NCBI GenBank assembly: GCA_900299185.1
Contig: OMIV01000090.1
Span: 1 to 53,935, forward strand
Length of the DNA stretch: 53,935 bases
Source of the DNA: Planctomycetaceae bacterium
GTDB lineage: Bacteria; Planctomycetota; Planctomycetia; Planctomycetales; Planctomycetaceae
Direction: 5' to 3'
Below the pieces are notes generated by a model. That model did not search any database, had not been told where the DNA came from, and was given only the letters and a program-made list of their open reading frames with translations. Positions 26,724 to 38,046 of the stretch are shown here, piece after piece; positions within the stretch are counted from its first letter, which is position 1; each line of letters opens with the position of its first letter. A program made the translations under genes and the position numbers.

Positions 26724-27191
26724 ATGGCGAATGTGCGAACGAGTTTGTTGTGCCTCTTCGCGACCTTTGTTGCCGTGAGCTCTGCGTACTCTCAGGGCCA
26801 ACCGCCGATGCAAGATCCTGAGACCGTTTTTCAGCAATTGGATGCGAACAAGGATGGCAAACTGACCTTGGGGGAAGGTGGGCAGGGAAGTCAGCAATTT
26901 CTTCGTCGACTTTTTGAGATGGCCAAGAAGAAGGATGGAGAGTCCATCAGTCGCGACGAGTTTCGACGCATTGCCGAACAACATCGTCGCGGCGCTGGTG
27001 GTGGTGGCACAGGTAATCCGCCACCTCGACCGATGCCGCCGAATCAACCCGAGGGCGAGCCGCGGCCAGCTCCAGGAGATGGTCGGTCAGTTGACCCGCT
27101 ACCCGGCTTGTTGCGGGTGCTCGATGAGAACCGAGACGGCAAGTTGTCGCGCACGGAGCTGAGTCGACTGGTGGAACGATTCAACGATTGA
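26724..27191 (+). CDS. EF-hand protein, N-terminal part, ending at an in-frame TGA
   Basis: 155 residues from ATG 26724 (AAAGGGGA seven bases upstream) to a TGA at 27189-27191. A signal peptide (MANVRTSLLCLFATFVAVSS, cleavage after YSQG) directs export. Calcium-binding EF-hand loops are visible in QQLDANKDGKLTLGE and RVLDENRDGKLSRTEL, with a weaker one near KKDGESISRDEF; a Gly/Pro-rich linker lies between. The frame stays open after the TGA and at once reads DRNRDGQLDADEL, which is a complete further EF-hand loop. So the TGA falls at the residue just before the loop of an EF-hand, and this is one gene cut in two by a nonsense codon, or recoded, rather than a natural end. Confidence 0.75.
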   Translation: MANVRTSLLCLFATFVAVSSAYSQGQPPMQDPETVFQQLDANKDGKLTLGEGGQGSQQFLRRLFEMAKKKDGESISRDEFRRIAEQHRRGAGGGGTGNPPPRPMPPNQPEGEPRPAPGDGRSVDPLPGLLRVLDENRDGKLSRTELSRLVERFND

Positions 27192-27782
27192 GATCGCAAT
27201 CGCGATGGCCAACTTGATGCTGATGAGTTGCGAGCCATCGATAGTGATACGGCGGATCGTCGACCTGCTGGGGATGCGCCGATGAATGATCCGTCGCGGC
27301 GGCCTGCAGTTCAGCCAGCGGGGAGAGATTCATCGGGTAACTCGGCAGAACGCAGCGGCGGACGTCGTCCAACGAACGGCTCGACAAGCACGGGTCCGAC
27401 GAATGCCACGCTTCAAAATCGCCTCGCTGGCACTTGGCGTGGTTGGGTCGTTGATGGACGCGGCGAGAATCCGAATGCCGGTCACATGGAGATGGAGTTG
27501 AGAGTTGAAGGCAATCGTATGTTTGGTCGCGAGGTGGGATCGAATCGCGCACCCGAGGGATTGGGCGACGGCACGTTTGTGGTGACCGGGACGGGCAACT
27601 CAGGCAACCTCGATGCTGTGCAAACTGCGGGGCAGCATGCCGGTCGCGAGTATCCTGGCATCTTCGAAATCGACGGCGACACGTTGAAGTGGTGCGTCAA
27701 CAATCGCAATGGTTCGCGGCCAACGTCGTTCGAGTCCGGTCGTGGCAACTACTTCATGATCCTGCGACGTCAAGGACGGTAA
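27192..27782 (+). pseudogene. C-terminal part of the EF-hand gene: last EF-hand and TIGR03067-like domain
   Basis: Same frame as the gene upstream, directly after its TGA, open to TAA at 27780-27782. It starts with the EF-hand loop DRNRDGQLDADEL, then a Pro/Ser/Arg-rich linker, then a beta-barrel-like domain: LAGTWRGWVVDGRG, FEIDGDTLKWCVNN and RPTSFESG, the pattern of TIGR03067, a planctomycete domain of unknown function. As a separate gene it would have to start at TTG 27228 or ATG 27282, neither with a good ribosome site. It therefore looks like the second half of one interrupted gene. Protein-level conservation of both halves suggests the break is recent, a sequencing error, or read through. 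Confidence 0.7.
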
Positions 27783-27824
27783 TAGTTCGCACAGCAGTGA
27801 GTGCGAGCCATTCTTTCAATGAGA

Positions 27825-27878
27825 AAACCCCGCTGAGATCGCGCGAGAGTGAGGTGCGGTCTTAGCGGGGTTTTCTTG
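27825..27878 (+). terminator. Terminator of the EF-hand gene
   Basis: AAAACCCCGCT (27825-27835) pairs exactly with AGCGGGGTTTT (27865-27875) around a 29-base loop that can pair further, ending in a T run. It lies about 40 bases after the TAA. Confidence 0.85.
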
Positions 27879-29870: not shown

Positions 29871-30207
29871 CACCGTCCCTGTTTGAGGTGGTTTCTCGGA
29901 AGGTACTTCGTCGCCAGTTTACCCCCCTGTCGGCAAGTCACAGAGAGAGCCTTCGATTTGCTTTGGGTACGTCGTTGGCTTTTGCGCGGCAGAGGATCAT
30001 GTCCATCGTTGCGCGAGGCAACTCAATTGCTTTGCCTGTCCGGTAGAGCTGGTAAGACGGGAAGGTTGGGTTTGCTGGATGACTCATTGATGAGTCACTA
30101 CAAGCCTGCTCGTTTTGACTGGCAGAAATTCGTTCACACGGGATGCGGGGTGCTTTGGTGGCGCTTCGTTCCCAAAACATTTGGGCCACGGCCGCGGAGC
30201 ACACACA
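29871..30207. other. Divergent intergenic region before the giant gene
   Basis: Contains the upstream regions of the hydrolase (minus) and the giant repeat protein (plus). I see no hairpin or clear promoter boxes. GGAG at 30196-30199 is the ribosome site of the giant gene. Confidence 0.4.
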
Positions 30208-33200
30208 ATGTCGAAGTCGCGTTGGGAGCAGTCGGTTTGGGGAGCGTTCATTGCCAAATTCTCGGGACTCGTTCGTCCCGCTAAGAAGAGCCGACGGCGT
30301 TTGTCTCAACGATCAAGCCTGTCGAATTCTCCTGCCGAGCTTCTAGAAGATCGCACGGTACCGACGATCGGTGCCAGCTTTGGTTTAGGCACGCTCTCAA
30401 TTCTCAATGCGACTGCCGCTGCGGAATCTGTCGTCGTGACCGCTGGTTCGACTTCAACCAACGTCTCGGTCAACGGCACGACGGTCGCCGTCATTCCAGG
30501 TGCGACGAGTTCGACAATCACGACGGTCGACTTCTCGGCTAGTGGCGCCTCGACGGACTCGCTGCAGATCGTCGGCTTGAACGGCGCGCTCACGGTCAAT
30601 CTCGGAAACACCGGCGCCCTGACCGTGAACTCGGGCAATCTCACCGTCAATTCGACGGGGCCGTTCTCATTCGGCAATACCTCGGTTAATGGCACGCTCT
30701 CGGTCACAACTTCGAACGACGCGGTGAGTGATACAGGCAAAGTGATCGTCAGCGGCGCTGTGAGTATCAATGCGGGAACAGGTGACATCACTCTCGATAG
30801 CGTTGGCGACAGCTTCGGCTCGCTGACTCTTACTGGCGACGACATCACGATTGCTGAGGCGACAGCGACGGATCTCGCCGCGGTGACGGCAGCATCGACC
30901 TTCTCACTGACCTCAGGCGGTACTGTGACCGACAGCGGCACTGTCGCCGTCACTGGTGCAGCAACAATTACAGCGACGGGGAAAGATGTTGCTCTCGACT
31001 CGGCCGCCAATGACTTCAGCACGATCTTGGTCAGTGCTGCGAACATCACGTTGCGCGACACTAATGCGATCGACCTCGGCACTGTGACCGCAACGGGAAC
31101 TTTGCGAGTGACCGCCGGAACGACGATCACCGACGCGACGAAGGTTAACGCAGCCGGTGCAACAACACTCTCTGGTTCTGTCATCACGCTAAACTCGACT
31201 TCAAATACGTTTGGCTCGCTGGCAATAACTTCGACCGGAGCGACTACGATCGTCGAGAATGCAGCGACTGACATTGCAGCCAGTTCAATTGGCGGTGCTC
31301 TTAGCATTACCTCGGCGGGAGCCGTGACGGACAGCGGCAAAGTCTCAGTGACGGGCAGTGTTACAATCGACACATCTGTGCTTGTTCCAGGCAGCTCTTA
31401 CCCGATCACTCTCGATCAATCGCTTTCAACGTACGGGGCGTTGATTCTCACTGGTACGAGCATTCTCGTTGTTGAAGGCGCCGCGACCAACATTGGTGCG
31501 ACGACAGCAACGGGTACGTTGACGGTTCAATCGGCAGGTGCGATCACTCAGTCGGGCGTTATCGCGGCGACAGGTACGACCACATTCATCGCCTCGGGTA
31601 ACGACATCACTCTCGCTAATGCAGCGAACGCCTTTGGCACAATTGCCCTGCGAGGTGCCAATGTTGCCATTAGTGAAGGCGCAGCTACGAATCTCGGAGC
31701 GAGCACGATCACCGGAACGCTGTCAGTGACGTCGACGGGAGACATCACCGACTCGGGGAAAGTTAATGCCGTTGGTGCGACAACATTCTCAGCCGCTGGC
31801 AAGAACATCACAGTCGATTCGCCAGGTGGTACGTTTGGTTCGCTAGCGTTGACCGGCGCTAACGTGACGATCGTCGAAGGTGCGGCAACTGACCTCGCGG
31901 CAAGTACCGTGAGTAATAATTTGACTCTCACGTCGAGCGGCATTGTTACTCAAAGCGGACAAGTCCAAGTTACCGGCATTACTACGATCAACGCCGGCGC
32001 CGGTGCAATCACCCTCAGCGACGCCACTAACGTCTTTGGTTCGCTGACATTGACTGGTTCCAATGTGACCGTTTCGCAAGTTGGTCCAATGGCCCTCAAT
32101 AAGGTCACTGCTAACGGTGCTCTCTCGCTGACCTCGACGACGACAATTGACGACTCGGGAACGATCGCTTCAACGGGTAGTACGACCCTATCCGGTACCG
32201 CAATTACTCTTAACTCAGTTGCAAATACCTTCGGCACTCTGCTGATTAACGCGACGGGCGGGGCGACGATCGTTGAAAATGCGGCAACCGATATCGGTGC
32301 CTCGAGCGTCACAGGTGCGTTGACCGTGACTTCGACAGGCGGCTTTACAGATAGTGGCAACATCTCCGTTTCGGGTGTCGCGACATTCTCATCGGCGAGC
32401 AAGCCGATTTCCCTGGATGCAACAGGCTCGAACTTCGGCTCGCTCGTGCTGACCGGATCTGATGTCGCCGTTCGCGAGGCTAGCGCGACGCAACTTGATG
32501 GAGTCACTGCGAGTGGGAATTTCACACTCTTGTCGGGCGGTGCGATCACCGACGCTGGCGCGATCAGCGTCACGGGTAAGGGAACTTACACTGCCGGCAC
32601 CGGCGCTAGTATCACTCTGAATGACACGAATAACTACGGCTCCTTCGCGGCCAGCGGCGTCAACATCACGTTAATCGAAGCGAGTGCAACCGATCTTAGC
32701 ACTGTGACTGCAACCGGTACGTTGAACGTCACCTCATCCGGTGCGATTACGGACTCGGGCCTTGTGACAGCAACAACCAGCACCACGCTCAGTGCAGGCG
32801 GCAACGCGATCACACTCGACGTTGCGAATTCGAAGTACGGCCCACTGGCCTTCACGGGCTCGAACGTCAGCCTCGTGAATACCGGAGCGCTCGATCTTGC
32901 TGCGAGTTCAGCGAGTGGCACATTGACGATCGCGGCCAAGAGTCTGACGGATAGCGGCAACCTTGCGATTACTGGCAAGACGACTATCAGCACTGGCACC
33001 GGCGCAGTGACGCTCGACAACTCAAATACCTTCGGCACGCTAGTGCTGACTTCGGGCACAACGATCATCAACGAGAACGCGTCGACGGATCTCGGAGCGA
33101 ACAAGATCGCGGGTGCCTTCACGCTGACTTCAGCCGGAGCAGTGACGGACAGCGGCACGCAGATCGTCTCGGGTGCCACAACGATTACAGCAGCCGGAAA

Positions 33201-36200
33201 TGACATCACGCTCGACGATGTGAAGAACGCCTTCAGCGGCACACTCGCCTTCAACGGAGACGATGTGCAGATCGTTAATACGCTCGGCATCACTCTCGGT
33301 TCGGCGACGACGACTTCTTCACTGACGATGCAAGCTAAGGGTAATATCAGTGACACCGTCGCTCTCGCACTCACTGGCACCACGAGCTTGAACGCGATCG
33401 GTGGAACGATCGTCCTCAATGACAGCGGCACCCTAGGGGCGATCTCGCTCAGCGGTAAGGGAGCGACCATCGTCAATACGGGAGCGGTGGCCCTCGGAAC
33501 GACTACTCTCAATGGTGCCTTGGGAGTGACGGCCGGCGGTGCCGTGAATCAAGCCAACGCGATGACGATCGTCGGCAACCTCACGGTCGATGCCGGTACC
33601 AACAACATCACGCTGACAAACGCTGGCAACACGTTCTTGCGAGCTGCTCTTACGGGCGCCGCCGTCAGTCTGCGTGACTCGGGTGCTCTCGATCTCGGAG
33701 CCGTGACAGCAACTGGTGCATTGACCTTGCAAGCAGGCGGAGCGATCAACGACTTCGGCCTCATTACAGCGGGTTCAACGTCGATCACTGCCGGTGCCAA
33801 CAGCGTCACGCTCGACAACACGACTTCGGACTACGGCACGTCGATCAGCTTTGTGTCCGCAGGCAGCGTGCTTATCAACAACACGAGTGCGATCAATCTC
33901 GGAGCCAGCACGATCTCCGGCGCCTTGAACGTGACCGCAGCCGGTATCACCGACGGCGGTACGCTCGCTGTGACGGGAACAGTGACACTCAACGCAGGCA
34001 CGAACGACATCACTCTCAACAGCGCCAACAACACCTTCGGCACGCTGAAGCTGAACGCTGCCAACGCAACGATCAGCGAAGGGCTCACCGGTGCATCGAC
34101 CGACCTCGGTGCGACGACGCTGTCAGGCAGTCTGACTGTGACGAGCGATCAAGCGATTACCGACAGCGGAGCGCTCGCCATCAGCGGTGCGGTAACACTG
34201 ACTTCAAACAACAACGCAGTCATCACGCTCGATACCGCGACGAATAACTTCGGCGGTCAGATCGGGGCGACGGGCGGTGCGCTGACGATCGTTGACACAA
34301 CGGCGGTTGATCTTGTTACGACGAAAACCAACGGCGGTGCATTGACGATTACAGCCGGTGGCGCGGTCACTGACAGCGGCACGATCACGGCGGGAACCGG
34401 AACCGTTACGATCAACGCCACCGGCTTCGACATCACCCTCGATGATCCTGCTGGTACTTACGGCACGATGTCGCTGAAGGGAGCCAACGTCGAAATCGTT
34501 GATTCGGCAGCAGCTGACATCGGCGCTTCGACGATCACTGGCACGTTCGATTTGACCGCAGGTGGATTGGTGACTCAGTCCGGTCCGATCACTGCGATTG
34601 GCACGACAACGATCATGGCAACTGGCTTCAATATCACGCTCGGAAACGCAAGCAACGTCTTCGGTTCGTTGTTGCTCGATGGTGCCGCCGTGACGATCAG
34701 TGAGGGCTCGGCGACTGATCTCGGAGCTAGCACGGTGACAGGAACGCTCAGCGTCACATCGACTGGAGCGATCACTGATACCGGAGCGCTCACGGTGATC
34801 GGCAACGCGACCTTCACGACGGGAACGACGAAGGCGGCCATTACTCTCGATGATGGCACATCTTCGTTTGGCGGAACGATTTCTCTCACGGGCGGAAACG
34901 TAGCCGTCCGTGACACAACTGCGGTTGACCTTGCTCTTGTTGCCGCGACTGGCTCGTTGTCCGTTACGGCCGGTGGAGCCATTACAAACTCGGGCAACGT
35001 TAGCGTCGCGGGTGCAGCGACCTTCGATGCAACTTCAGCGAATAACATCACGCTGAATACCAACACGGTCGACTTCGGATCGTTCAATGCGAACGGCAAC
35101 ACTATCGACATTGCCGAAAACTCTTCGGCTGTGCTCGGAACTGTGACTGCTGCGACTGACTTCACTTATGTCGCGAACGGAGCGATCACTGATTCAGGCG
35201 TCGTGACGATTACCGGCAACACCACTATCGACGCGACCGGCAATGCAATCACCCTCGATACACCGACGTCGAACTACGGCAACGGCACGGGCACGATCGC
35301 TCTCGATGGCTCGAACGTCGCTTTGAGAACGAATTCCGCTGCGGTGCTCGACGTCATCCAAACAACGGGTTCATTGGCGATCACAGCGACTGGCAACATT
35401 AGCGAGTCCGGTGCTCCCAACATCGACGTTGGAACGACAACGAGCCTTGATGCCGGCAGCGGGGACATCAACGTTGTTGCGGCAGCGAATAGCTTCGTCG
35501 GAGCGATCAGCCTGCGGGGCACGAATGGCACACTCACTGTCGGTGCGGCAGTTGATCTCGGGACCGTGAATCTTGGCGGCACGTTCGACCTGACATCGAA
35601 TGGTGCGATCACCGATAGCGGAGTCGTTCATACGACCGGTATTACAACGCTCGATGCCGGAGCAACTACGAATGACATCACGTTGGATTCCGTGGCCAAC
35701 ACCTTTGGTCAACTGGTTGTTGTGGCTGCGGACGACGTCGTCATTGTCGAAGCTGCTGCAACGAGTTTCGGTGATGTTGCCTCGACAACTCTAACCGTCA
35801 CTTCTAGCGGAGCGATCACTCAAGCTGCTGGCGGCACTGGTATCGTCCTTGCCGCGGCAGCTGCTTCTACCGCGGCATCTTTCACTGCACCGGGCTTCTC
35901 AATCTCGCTCACAAATGTCGGAAACGACTTCGGCGCTGCGACTGCCATCACAAACCTGAGAGGGCTTAATGTCGCGATCACTGATGTTGATGACTTGGAA
36001 CTCGGCACAACAACTGCCACCGGTAACCTTACGGTCGTGGCTGGAAGTGACGTCACCAATACCGGAATCATTACGGTCACAGGCACGTCAAATATCGACG
36101 CGACTGCGACGGGCAACATCACCGTTGGCAGCGGCGCTTCGAAGTTCGGCGGCAACGTGACCTTGAACGGCCTCGCCGTTGATATTACGGCTGGCGGAGC

Positions 36201-38046
36201 CTTGAACTTCGCAGCGGTTACTGCGGTTGGCACGCTCGACATTACGGCAGCCGGCGCGGTGAGCGATACTGGTAAGATCGACGTAACGGGTATTACAACG
36301 ATTGCAGCGAGCGGCAATACGATCACGCTCGACACTGCGACGAATTTGTTCCTGCTGGACCTCGTGTTGACTGGCACCAACATCGCGATCACGAATAGCG
36401 CGGCTGCGGGTACAGTGCTCGGAGCGATCAGTGCGTCGGGAACCTTGACGATCAACTCGACAGGTGCGGGCGATGTCACGGATTCCGGTGCCGTTGTGGT
36501 GGCAGGAGCGACGACGATTAGCGCTCCGAACACAAACGACATCACACTTGCCAATGCTGGATCGCGTTACACGCGGCTCAATCTGAGTGCCAACAACATT
36601 GACGTGACGAATGGTCGCGCGACTGAATTGGGTACTGTCACAGCAGCTACGAACTTGACCGTGACATCGACTTCGGGCGCTGTCACTGATTCTGGCACCG
36701 TCACTGTTGGCGGCGTTACGACAATCGACGCCGGTAACTTCAATATCACGCTCGATTCAGCGGCGTCGGCTTACACCGGCAACCTGATCCTCGACGGTTA
36801 CAACATCGCTGTGACCAACAACCGAGCAACAGCTCTCGGCCTGACGACGGCGTTGAACAACCTCAGCATCACGTCGGCGGGCAACATCGACGATAACGGC
36901 GTGTTGACAGTTGCGGGCAAGTCGAGCTTCAGCGCTGTCGCCAATGACATCACCCTCAATCAAGCGTCCTTCTTCACTGGGGCTCTGAGCTTCGTCGGCG
37001 ACGACGTGGCCGTTTCGGCTCTTGCTGGAGCCAATGCGATCCTCGGAAACGCGACTCTGACCGGCGACTTGAGCTTCACTTCCAACGGTATCTTGTTGCA
37101 AAGCACGGGCAGTGTTTTGGCTGTCGCAGGCGACGTGACACTCAATGGCGGGGCGTCGAATGTCGAAGTCGTGCTCACGGGCTCGTCAATCGGCGGAAAT
37201 CTGATCCTCACCGGCGACACGCTCATCGTCACGACAAGCGGCGCAGTCTCGCTTGGCAATGTCACAGCAGCTACAGACTTCACACTCACGACGACCGGAG
37301 CCGTGACTGACGCTGGAACAGTGTCCGTCGGAGGCTTGACCAACATCGATGCTGGAACGGGCTCGATCGTTCTCGATGCAGCAGGTTCGGCCTACACCGG
37401 AGCGATCACACTGGCTGGCGCGAACGTCGCGTTCACGAACAGCGTGGCAACGGCCTTCGATGGCATCACTGCGACCGGGACATTGTCCATTAACTCGCAA
37501 GGAACCGCGATCACCGACAATGGGGCGATCAACGCGACAGGTACGACGACGATTAACTCGGGCGCTGCCTCAACGATCCTTGACGACATCGGTTCGACGT
37601 TCGGCACACTGAACTTGACGGGTACTTCGGTCGCCGTGACGGATGCCGGAGCTGTTGATCTTGGAACGGTCTCAGTGACGAATCTCACCATCATCGCGGG
37701 TGGAGCGATTACGGATAGCGGCGTGCTGACGATTACTGGAGCGACCGACCTGACGGCCAGCGGTTACTCGATCACTCTCAACTCTTCGACATCGACCTTC
37801 ACCGGTACGTTGGGGTTGGTTGGTACCAACATTGATGTGACTGCGAATGGTGCGATTGACTTCGGCACTGTGACTGCGAATGGCAATCTCAACATCGTGG
37901 CGAACGGGGCCATCACCGACACTGGAGCGGTTGTGGTCACAGGCAACACGGTGATGAATGCTGGTACGAACGCGATCACTCTGGATAACGCCGGTCGCAG
38001 CTTCGGCGGCACCGTGTTGATGTTCGGTAACCCGGTTGCGTACTAA
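30208..38046 (+). CDS. Giant repeat surface protein with LEDR-type N-terminal motif
   Basis: 2,612 residues from ATG 30208 (GGAG eight bases upstream); a frame start at 30115 adds an unlikely leader. The first 60 residues are basic and carry ELLEDRTVP (44-52), the planctomycete relative of the LEPRxLL motif found at the start of giant exported proteins. The rest is about 35 full repeats and one partial repeat of 64-80 residues, each shaped as (I/V)TDSG-x-VTGATTI, then NDITLDNAxNTFGSL, then LTGANVTI, ATDLG and a TGTLSVTSxGA end. This is a Ser/Thr/Gly/Asn-rich beta-helix like the body of filamentous haemagglutinin-type adhesins. Its large size and lack of Cys and aromatic residues fit a surface fibre. 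The last repeat stops early, and no beta-barrel or sorting signal is visible at the C-terminus. A terminator follows. Confidence 0.85.
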   Translation: MSKSRWEQSVWGAFIAKFSGLVRPAKKSRRRLSQRSSLSNSPAELLEDRTVPTIGASFGLGTLSILNATAAAESVVVTAGSTSTNVSVNGTTVAVIPGATSSTITTVDFSASGASTDSLQIVGLNGALTVNLGNTGALTVNSGNLTVNSTGPFSFGNTSVNGTLSVTTSNDAVSDTGKVIVSGAVSINAGTGDITLDSVGDSFGSLTLTGDDITIAEATATDLAAVTAASTFSLTSGGTVTDSGTVAVTGAATITATGKDVALDSAANDFSTILVSAANITLRDTNAIDLGTVTATGTLRVTAGTTITDATKVNAAGATTLSGSVITLNSTSNTFGSLAITSTGATTIVENAATDIAASSIGGALSITSAGAVTDSGKVSVTGSVTIDTSVLVPGSSYPITLDQSLSTYGALILTGTSILVVEGAATNIGATTATGTLTVQSAGAITQSGVIAATGTTTFIASGNDITLANAANAFGTIALRGANVAISEGAATNLGASTITGTLSVTSTGDITDSGKVNAVGATTFSAAGKNITVDSPGGTFGSLALTGANVTIVEGAATDLAASTVSNNLTLTSSGIVTQSGQVQVTGITTINAGAGAITLSDATNVFGSLTLTGSNVTVSQVGPMALNKVTANGALSLTSTTTIDDSGTIASTGSTTLSGTAITLNSVANTFGTLLINATGGATIVENAATDIGASSVTGALTVTSTGGFTDSGNISVSGVATFSSASKPISLDATGSNFGSLVLTGSDVAVREASATQLDGVTASGNFTLLSGGAITDAGAISVTGKGTYTAGTGASITLNDTNNYGSFAASGVNITLIEASATDLSTVTATGTLNVTSSGAITDSGLVTATTSTTLSAGGNAITLDVANSKYGPLAFTGSNVSLVNTGALDLAASSASGTLTIAAKSLTDSGNLAITGKTTISTGTGAVTLDNSNTFGTLVLTSGTTIINENASTDLGANKIAGAFTLTSAGAVTDSGTQIVSGATTITAAGNDITLDDVKNAFSGTLAFNGDDVQIVNTLGITLGSATTTSSLTMQAKGNISDTVALALTGTTSLNAIGGTIVLNDSGTLGAISLSGKGATIVNTGAVALGTTTLNGALGVTAGGAVNQANAMTIVGNLTVDAGTNNITLTNAGNTFLRAALTGAAVSLRDSGALDLGAVTATGALTLQAGGAINDFGLITAGSTSITAGANSVTLDNTTSDYGTSISFVSAGSVLINNTSAINLGASTISGALNVTAAGITDGGTLAVTGTVTLNAGTNDITLNSANNTFGTLKLNAANATISEGLTGASTDLGATTLSGSLTVTSDQAITDSGALAISGAVTLTSNNNAVITLDTATNNFGGQIGATGGALTIVDTTAVDLVTTKTNGGALTITAGGAVTDSGTITAGTGTVTINATGFDITLDDPAGTYGTMSLKGANVEIVDSAAADIGASTITGTFDLTAGGLVTQSGPITAIGTTTIMATGFNITLGNASNVFGSLLLDGAAVTISEGSATDLGASTVTGTLSVTSTGAITDTGALTVIGNATFTTGTTKAAITLDDGTSSFGGTISLTGGNVAVRDTTAVDLALVAATGSLSVTAGGAITNSGNVSVAGAATFDATSANNITLNTNTVDFGSFNANGNTIDIAENSSAVLGTVTAATDFTYVANGAITDSGVVTITGNTTIDATGNAITLDTPTSNYGNGTGTIALDGSNVALRTNSAAVLDVIQTTGSLAITATGNISESGAPNIDVGTTTSLDAGSGDINVVAAANSFVGAISLRGTNGTLTVGAAVDLGTVNLGGTFDLTSNGAITDSGVVHTTGITTLDAGATTNDITLDSVANTFGQLVVVAADDVVIVEAAATSFGDVASTTLTVTSSGAITQAAGGTGIVLAAAAASTAASFTAPGFSISLTNVGNDFGAATAITNLRGLNVAITDVDDLELGTTTATGNLTVVAGSDVTNTGIITVTGTSNIDATATGNITVGSGASKFGGNVTLNGLAVDITAGGALNFAAVTAVGTLDITAAGAVSDTGKIDVTGITTIAASGNTITLDTATNLFLLDLVLTGTNIAITNSAAAGTVLGAISASGTLTINSTGAGDVTDSGAVVVAGATTISAPNTNDITLANAGSRYTRLNLSANNIDVTNGRATELGTVTAATNLTVTSTSGAVTDSGTVTVGGVTTIDAGNFNITLDSAASAYTGNLILDGYNIAVTNNRATALGLTTALNNLSITSAGNIDDNGVLTVAGKSSFSAVANDITLNQASFFTGALSFVGDDVAVSALAGANAILGNATLTGDLSFTSNGILLQSTGSVLAVAGDVTLNGGASNVEVVLTGSSIGGNLILTGDTLIVTTSGAVSLGNVTAATDFTLTTTGAVTDAGTVSVGGLTNIDAGTGSIVLDAAGSAYTGAITLAGANVAFTNSVATAFDGITATGTLSINSQGTAITDNGAINATGTTTINSGAASTILDDIGSTFGTLNLTGTSVAVTDAGAVDLGTVSVTNLTIIAGGAITDSGVLTITGATDLTASGYSITLNSSTSTFTGTLGLVGTNIDVTANGAIDFGTVTANGNLNIVANGAITDTGAVVVTGNTVMNAGTNAITLDNAGRSFGGTVLMFGNPVAY

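Follow-up and report, generated by a model that had tools for sequence, protein, structure and literature searches.

A single in-frame TGA in an otherwise intact gene for a probable secreted EF-hand and TIGR03067 protein of a Planctomycetaceae bacterium

An interrupted gene

At positions 26724-27782 of the window (the whole stretch of DNA analysed here, 53,935 nucleotides of contig OMIV01000090.1), a Planctomycetaceae bacterium appears to carry a single gene that encodes a secreted planctomycete protein with a signal peptide, EF-hands and a TIGR03067 domain, and that bears one premature TGA. From comparison with related sequences, we put the probability at about 0.87 that this is one interrupted, otherwise intact gene, in which the stop is either a private nonsense change or a one-base error in the sequence or its assembly, the two being taken together. 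Of the two, we hold a real mutation to be the likelier, at roughly 60:40. This division is a judgement and no result separates the two, as the searched genomes include no closer relative by which a true mutation could be told from a sequence error. A real change would probably be a recent one in the sampled strain. In that case, the main product would be an exported EF-hand protein cut short before the last EF-hand and the TIGR03067 domain, and the gene would probably be turning into a pseudogene. Most likely, the premature stop is an ordinary event, with no sign of special decoding.

Structure of the gene and position of the stop

The features of the region are as follows.

26724-27782, forward strand: whole frame, with ATG at 26724, TGA at 27189-27191 and TAA at 27780-27782, in the same frame throughout
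26724-27191, forward strand: N-terminal half, with signal peptide, canonical EF-hand loops from residues 40 and 134 separated by a degenerate one, and a Pro/Gly-rich linker; ends at the TGA
27189-27191, forward strand: in-frame TGA, just ahead of the first position of the last EF-hand loop; 4 of 4 relatives that cover the site have Leu
27192-27782, forward strand: C-terminal half in the same frame, with EF-hand loop DRNRDGQLDADE, linker, TIGR03067 domain and TAA
27282-27284, forward strand: in-frame ATG, candidate restart site for the C-terminal half, which would then be without signal peptide; GGGGA 7 nt upstream
about 27821-27877, forward strand: strong hairpin terminator after the TAA

The signal peptide, judged by eye, is of the Sec type (MANVRTSLLCLFATFVAVSSAYSQG). 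Canonical EF-hand loops are found at residue 40 (DANKDGKLTLGE), at residue 134 (DENRDGKLSRTE) and, just past the TGA, from residue 157 (DRNRDGQLDADE), with the degenerate loop sitting between the first two. The TGA itself takes the place of residue 156, the last one before the third canonical loop begins. As the last two canonical loops start 23 residues apart, the TGA removes the second of two paired EF-hands. A low-complexity linker joins the third loop to the TIGR03067 domain. The N-terminal half matches Pfam EF-hand_5 (1.2e-12). The C-terminal half matches the planctomycete domain TIGR03067 of NCBIfam (E 5.2e-13; 49.2 bits, where the cut-off is 40.15 bits), but in the present gene this domain lies beyond the premature stop. 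The parts by which we recognise the orthologue group (a signal peptide by eye, EF-hand loops and TIGR03067) thus all stand in one register, in a frame that is cut by the TGA. An earlier note, made from the sequence alone, had described a frame with signal peptide and calcium-binding loops that stops at this TGA and then reads on through an EF-hand and a TIGR03067-like domain; its coordinates proved exact and the profile matches agree with it.

The main start, ATG 26724, has GGGGA 7 nt upstream. Past the TGA, 196 codons stay open up to the TAA, for which a simple base-composition estimate gives a chance of about 8e-4, and the C-terminal half contains no further stop or frameshift. The strong terminator that the note had seen after the frame was recovered as a hairpin of 24 pairs (about -44 kcal/mol) with a short run of T behind it. 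Our pattern scan did not list it because its 9-base loop and 24-pair stem lie beyond the limits of the scan. No terminator was found at the TGA (27189-27191). The gene is present in one copy in the genome. Elsewhere in the window, positions 30115-38046 hold a 2643-codon frame of many short similar repeats, which resembles a large secreted or surface repeat protein.

Uninterrupted relatives carry leucine at the stop position

Across 170 genomes of the family, our search found full-length orthologues without the stop in three genomes (L003 in G030, L032 in G114 and L033 in G173), with 45-48% identity over the alignment, and a fourth orthologue (in G113) that is divided between two contig ends. 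An order-level search covered the same number of genomes and gave the same result. These relatives come from planctomycete metagenome-assembled genomes, two of which are labelled Planctomycetaceae, one Planctomicrobium and one Schlesneria. The aligned orthologues keep all parts of the protein, and the three uninterrupted proteins share the order of the parts and the conserved residues with the present gene. In the TIGR03067 part, 60-64% identity with the relatives is kept.

At the position of the TGA, all four relatives that cover the site, the uninterrupted proteins among them, have leucine (codons CTC, CTC, CTG and CTC), in line with the hydrophobic residue that had been expected at the codon before loop position 1. 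As the intact orthologues all carry leucine here, the reading as one gene is right. One detail of the earlier proposal fails: a one-base change from TGG or TTA to TGA had been suggested, and the relatives have CTC or CTG. More than one base change separates either of these from TGA, and the original codon can therefore not be read from the relatives. Among the orthologues compared, the stop is private to this genome (absent in 4 of 4). A premature stop that is absent from intact orthologues, as found here, is one mark of a pseudogene or nonsense allele.

The same comparison bears on whether the two halves are separate adjacent genes, which nothing favours except the stop itself. The orthologues are single frames and the TGA splits an EF-hand, which makes this reading highly improbable; for the family, the single-frame orthologues refute it. 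The note had named relatives that end at this point and carry the second half as a separate gene as the observation that would speak against one interrupted gene, and these orthologues are the opposite of that.

The only other same-genus genome found (G001) has no orthologue at 1e-25, and its site beside prs holds neither a copy nor a remnant of the gene. The neighbours of the present gene are not conserved at the orthologue loci, viral contigs contained no relative, and literature searches brought up nothing on this protein. In another genome of the family, the match to an EF-hand protein (L004:1501-2091; G009:C600:1528-2118) holds two in-frame TAG codons.

TGA is a normal terminator in this genome

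Decoding of TGA as an amino acid, whether selenocysteine or another one through reassignment, is extremely improbable in this organism. Two places did slightly exceed the cut-off of the tRNA-Sec model (49.7 bits, cut-off 47), but ARAGORN reads one of them as tRNA-Ser(UGA) and finds no tRNA at the other, which has an identical score and lies at a contig end. We rejected the selenoprotein reading, as these matches amount to a tRNA-Ser and a contig-end fragment and no SelB over the cut-off was found in the genome. A UGA-reassigned code was rejected because TGA is in use as a terminator, ending 389 of 1005 coding-like frames, and RF2 is retained. Since TGA works as a normal terminator, RF2 is there and no SelB passed the cut-off, we see no support for recoding or for selenocysteine. 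The pattern used for tRNA-Trp found none.

Other in-frame stops in the same genome

We surveyed 1.15 Mb of the same genome (G000; 383 contigs, 97% complete) for neighbouring same-frame segments that are both coding-like. As a single-codon coding score was too weak, a dicodon score was used instead. The survey is not exhaustive, nor is it specific: many of the listed pairs are ordinary adjacent genes, the second of which has its start immediately behind the stop, and the EF-hand/TIGR03067 gene itself fails the filter, the 40 codons past its stop scoring 0.02.

Among the listed pairs are three further genes, all for conserved proteins, that are interrupted by a single stop, and in each the frame runs on in register past it. 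A TGA lies inside an FGE-sulfatase (SUMF1-like) domain (L103:7744-7746; G000:C27), where the Pfam domain extends across the stop (E 4.5e-60); the first in-frame start codon after it comes 44 codons later. A TAG lies inside the HATPase domain of a CheA-like kinase (L097:2297-2299; G000:C21), again spanned by the Pfam domain (E 3.3e-19); the nearest homologues of this gene, both in other genomes and as paralogues in the same genome, are without a stop. A TAA lies in a leucine-rich-repeat array (L120, minus strand, reverse-complement position 2749-2751; G000:C44), at a position where the other repeats mostly have Ser. As single in-frame stops of the TGA, TAG and TAA types were all found, nonsense codons of every kind seem to form a low background in this assembly. 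They are not pervasive, since most genes are clean: among the matches listed, in-frame stops occur in none of 8 sulfatases and 1 of 6 FGE domains.

Restart, read-through and selection

The C-terminal half could be translated separately by a restart at ATG 27282, giving two products. Like the main start, this ATG is preceded by GGGGA at a distance of 7 nt. However, it lies 90 bases past the TGA, its Met is not conserved in the linkers of the relatives, and the relatives make one protein; the product would also be without signal peptide and without the last EF-hand. We regard such a restart as improbable.

In functional read-through, ribosomes would sometimes pass the TGA, yielding a short and a long secreted form. 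The intact downstream frame, which is conserved in the relatives, would fit this, as would the otherwise undamaged C-terminal half, and in-frame stops in bacterial genes under purifying selection have been reported as widespread (PMC7918605). As here, the frame in the cases of that 2021 study is intact before and after a single stop; their stop is common to related species, whereas the present one is private to one genome. The RNA just past the TGA folds somewhat better than shuffled sequences (z -1.95), but this is a weak signal, which might stem from coding constraint alone. Programmed read-through is marked by a conserved stop with selection downstream, and here none of the 4 orthologues that cover the site has the TGA. 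Moreover, the interrupted genes of this genome use all three stops. As the stop is not conserved, TAG and TAA interruptions occur elsewhere and no selenocysteine machinery was found, read-through is without positive support, and we give it a low probability. Of the three explanations in the earlier note, nonsense mutation and sequence error therefore both fit, while short and long secreted forms gained no such backing. It is very doubtful that this lineage-specific UGA within an EF-hand serves as a leaky switch by which either a secreted EF-hand protein or a longer one with TIGR03067 is made. Proof of read-through would make the gene a rare bacterial case in which a stop controls the domain content of a secreted protein. 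As a caution, a private single premature stop in a draft genome needs read support before recoding is claimed.

The orthologues are too distant for dN/dS to be useful. In a three-taxon count with one set of relatives, changes unique to this lineage were slightly in excess in the TIGR03067 part (25 of 39) compared with the N-terminal half (23 of 55; Fisher p 0.04, uncorrected). If anything, this speaks against continued constraint on the part beyond the stop, as read-through would require; it leans towards relaxed constraint on this lineage and proves nothing.
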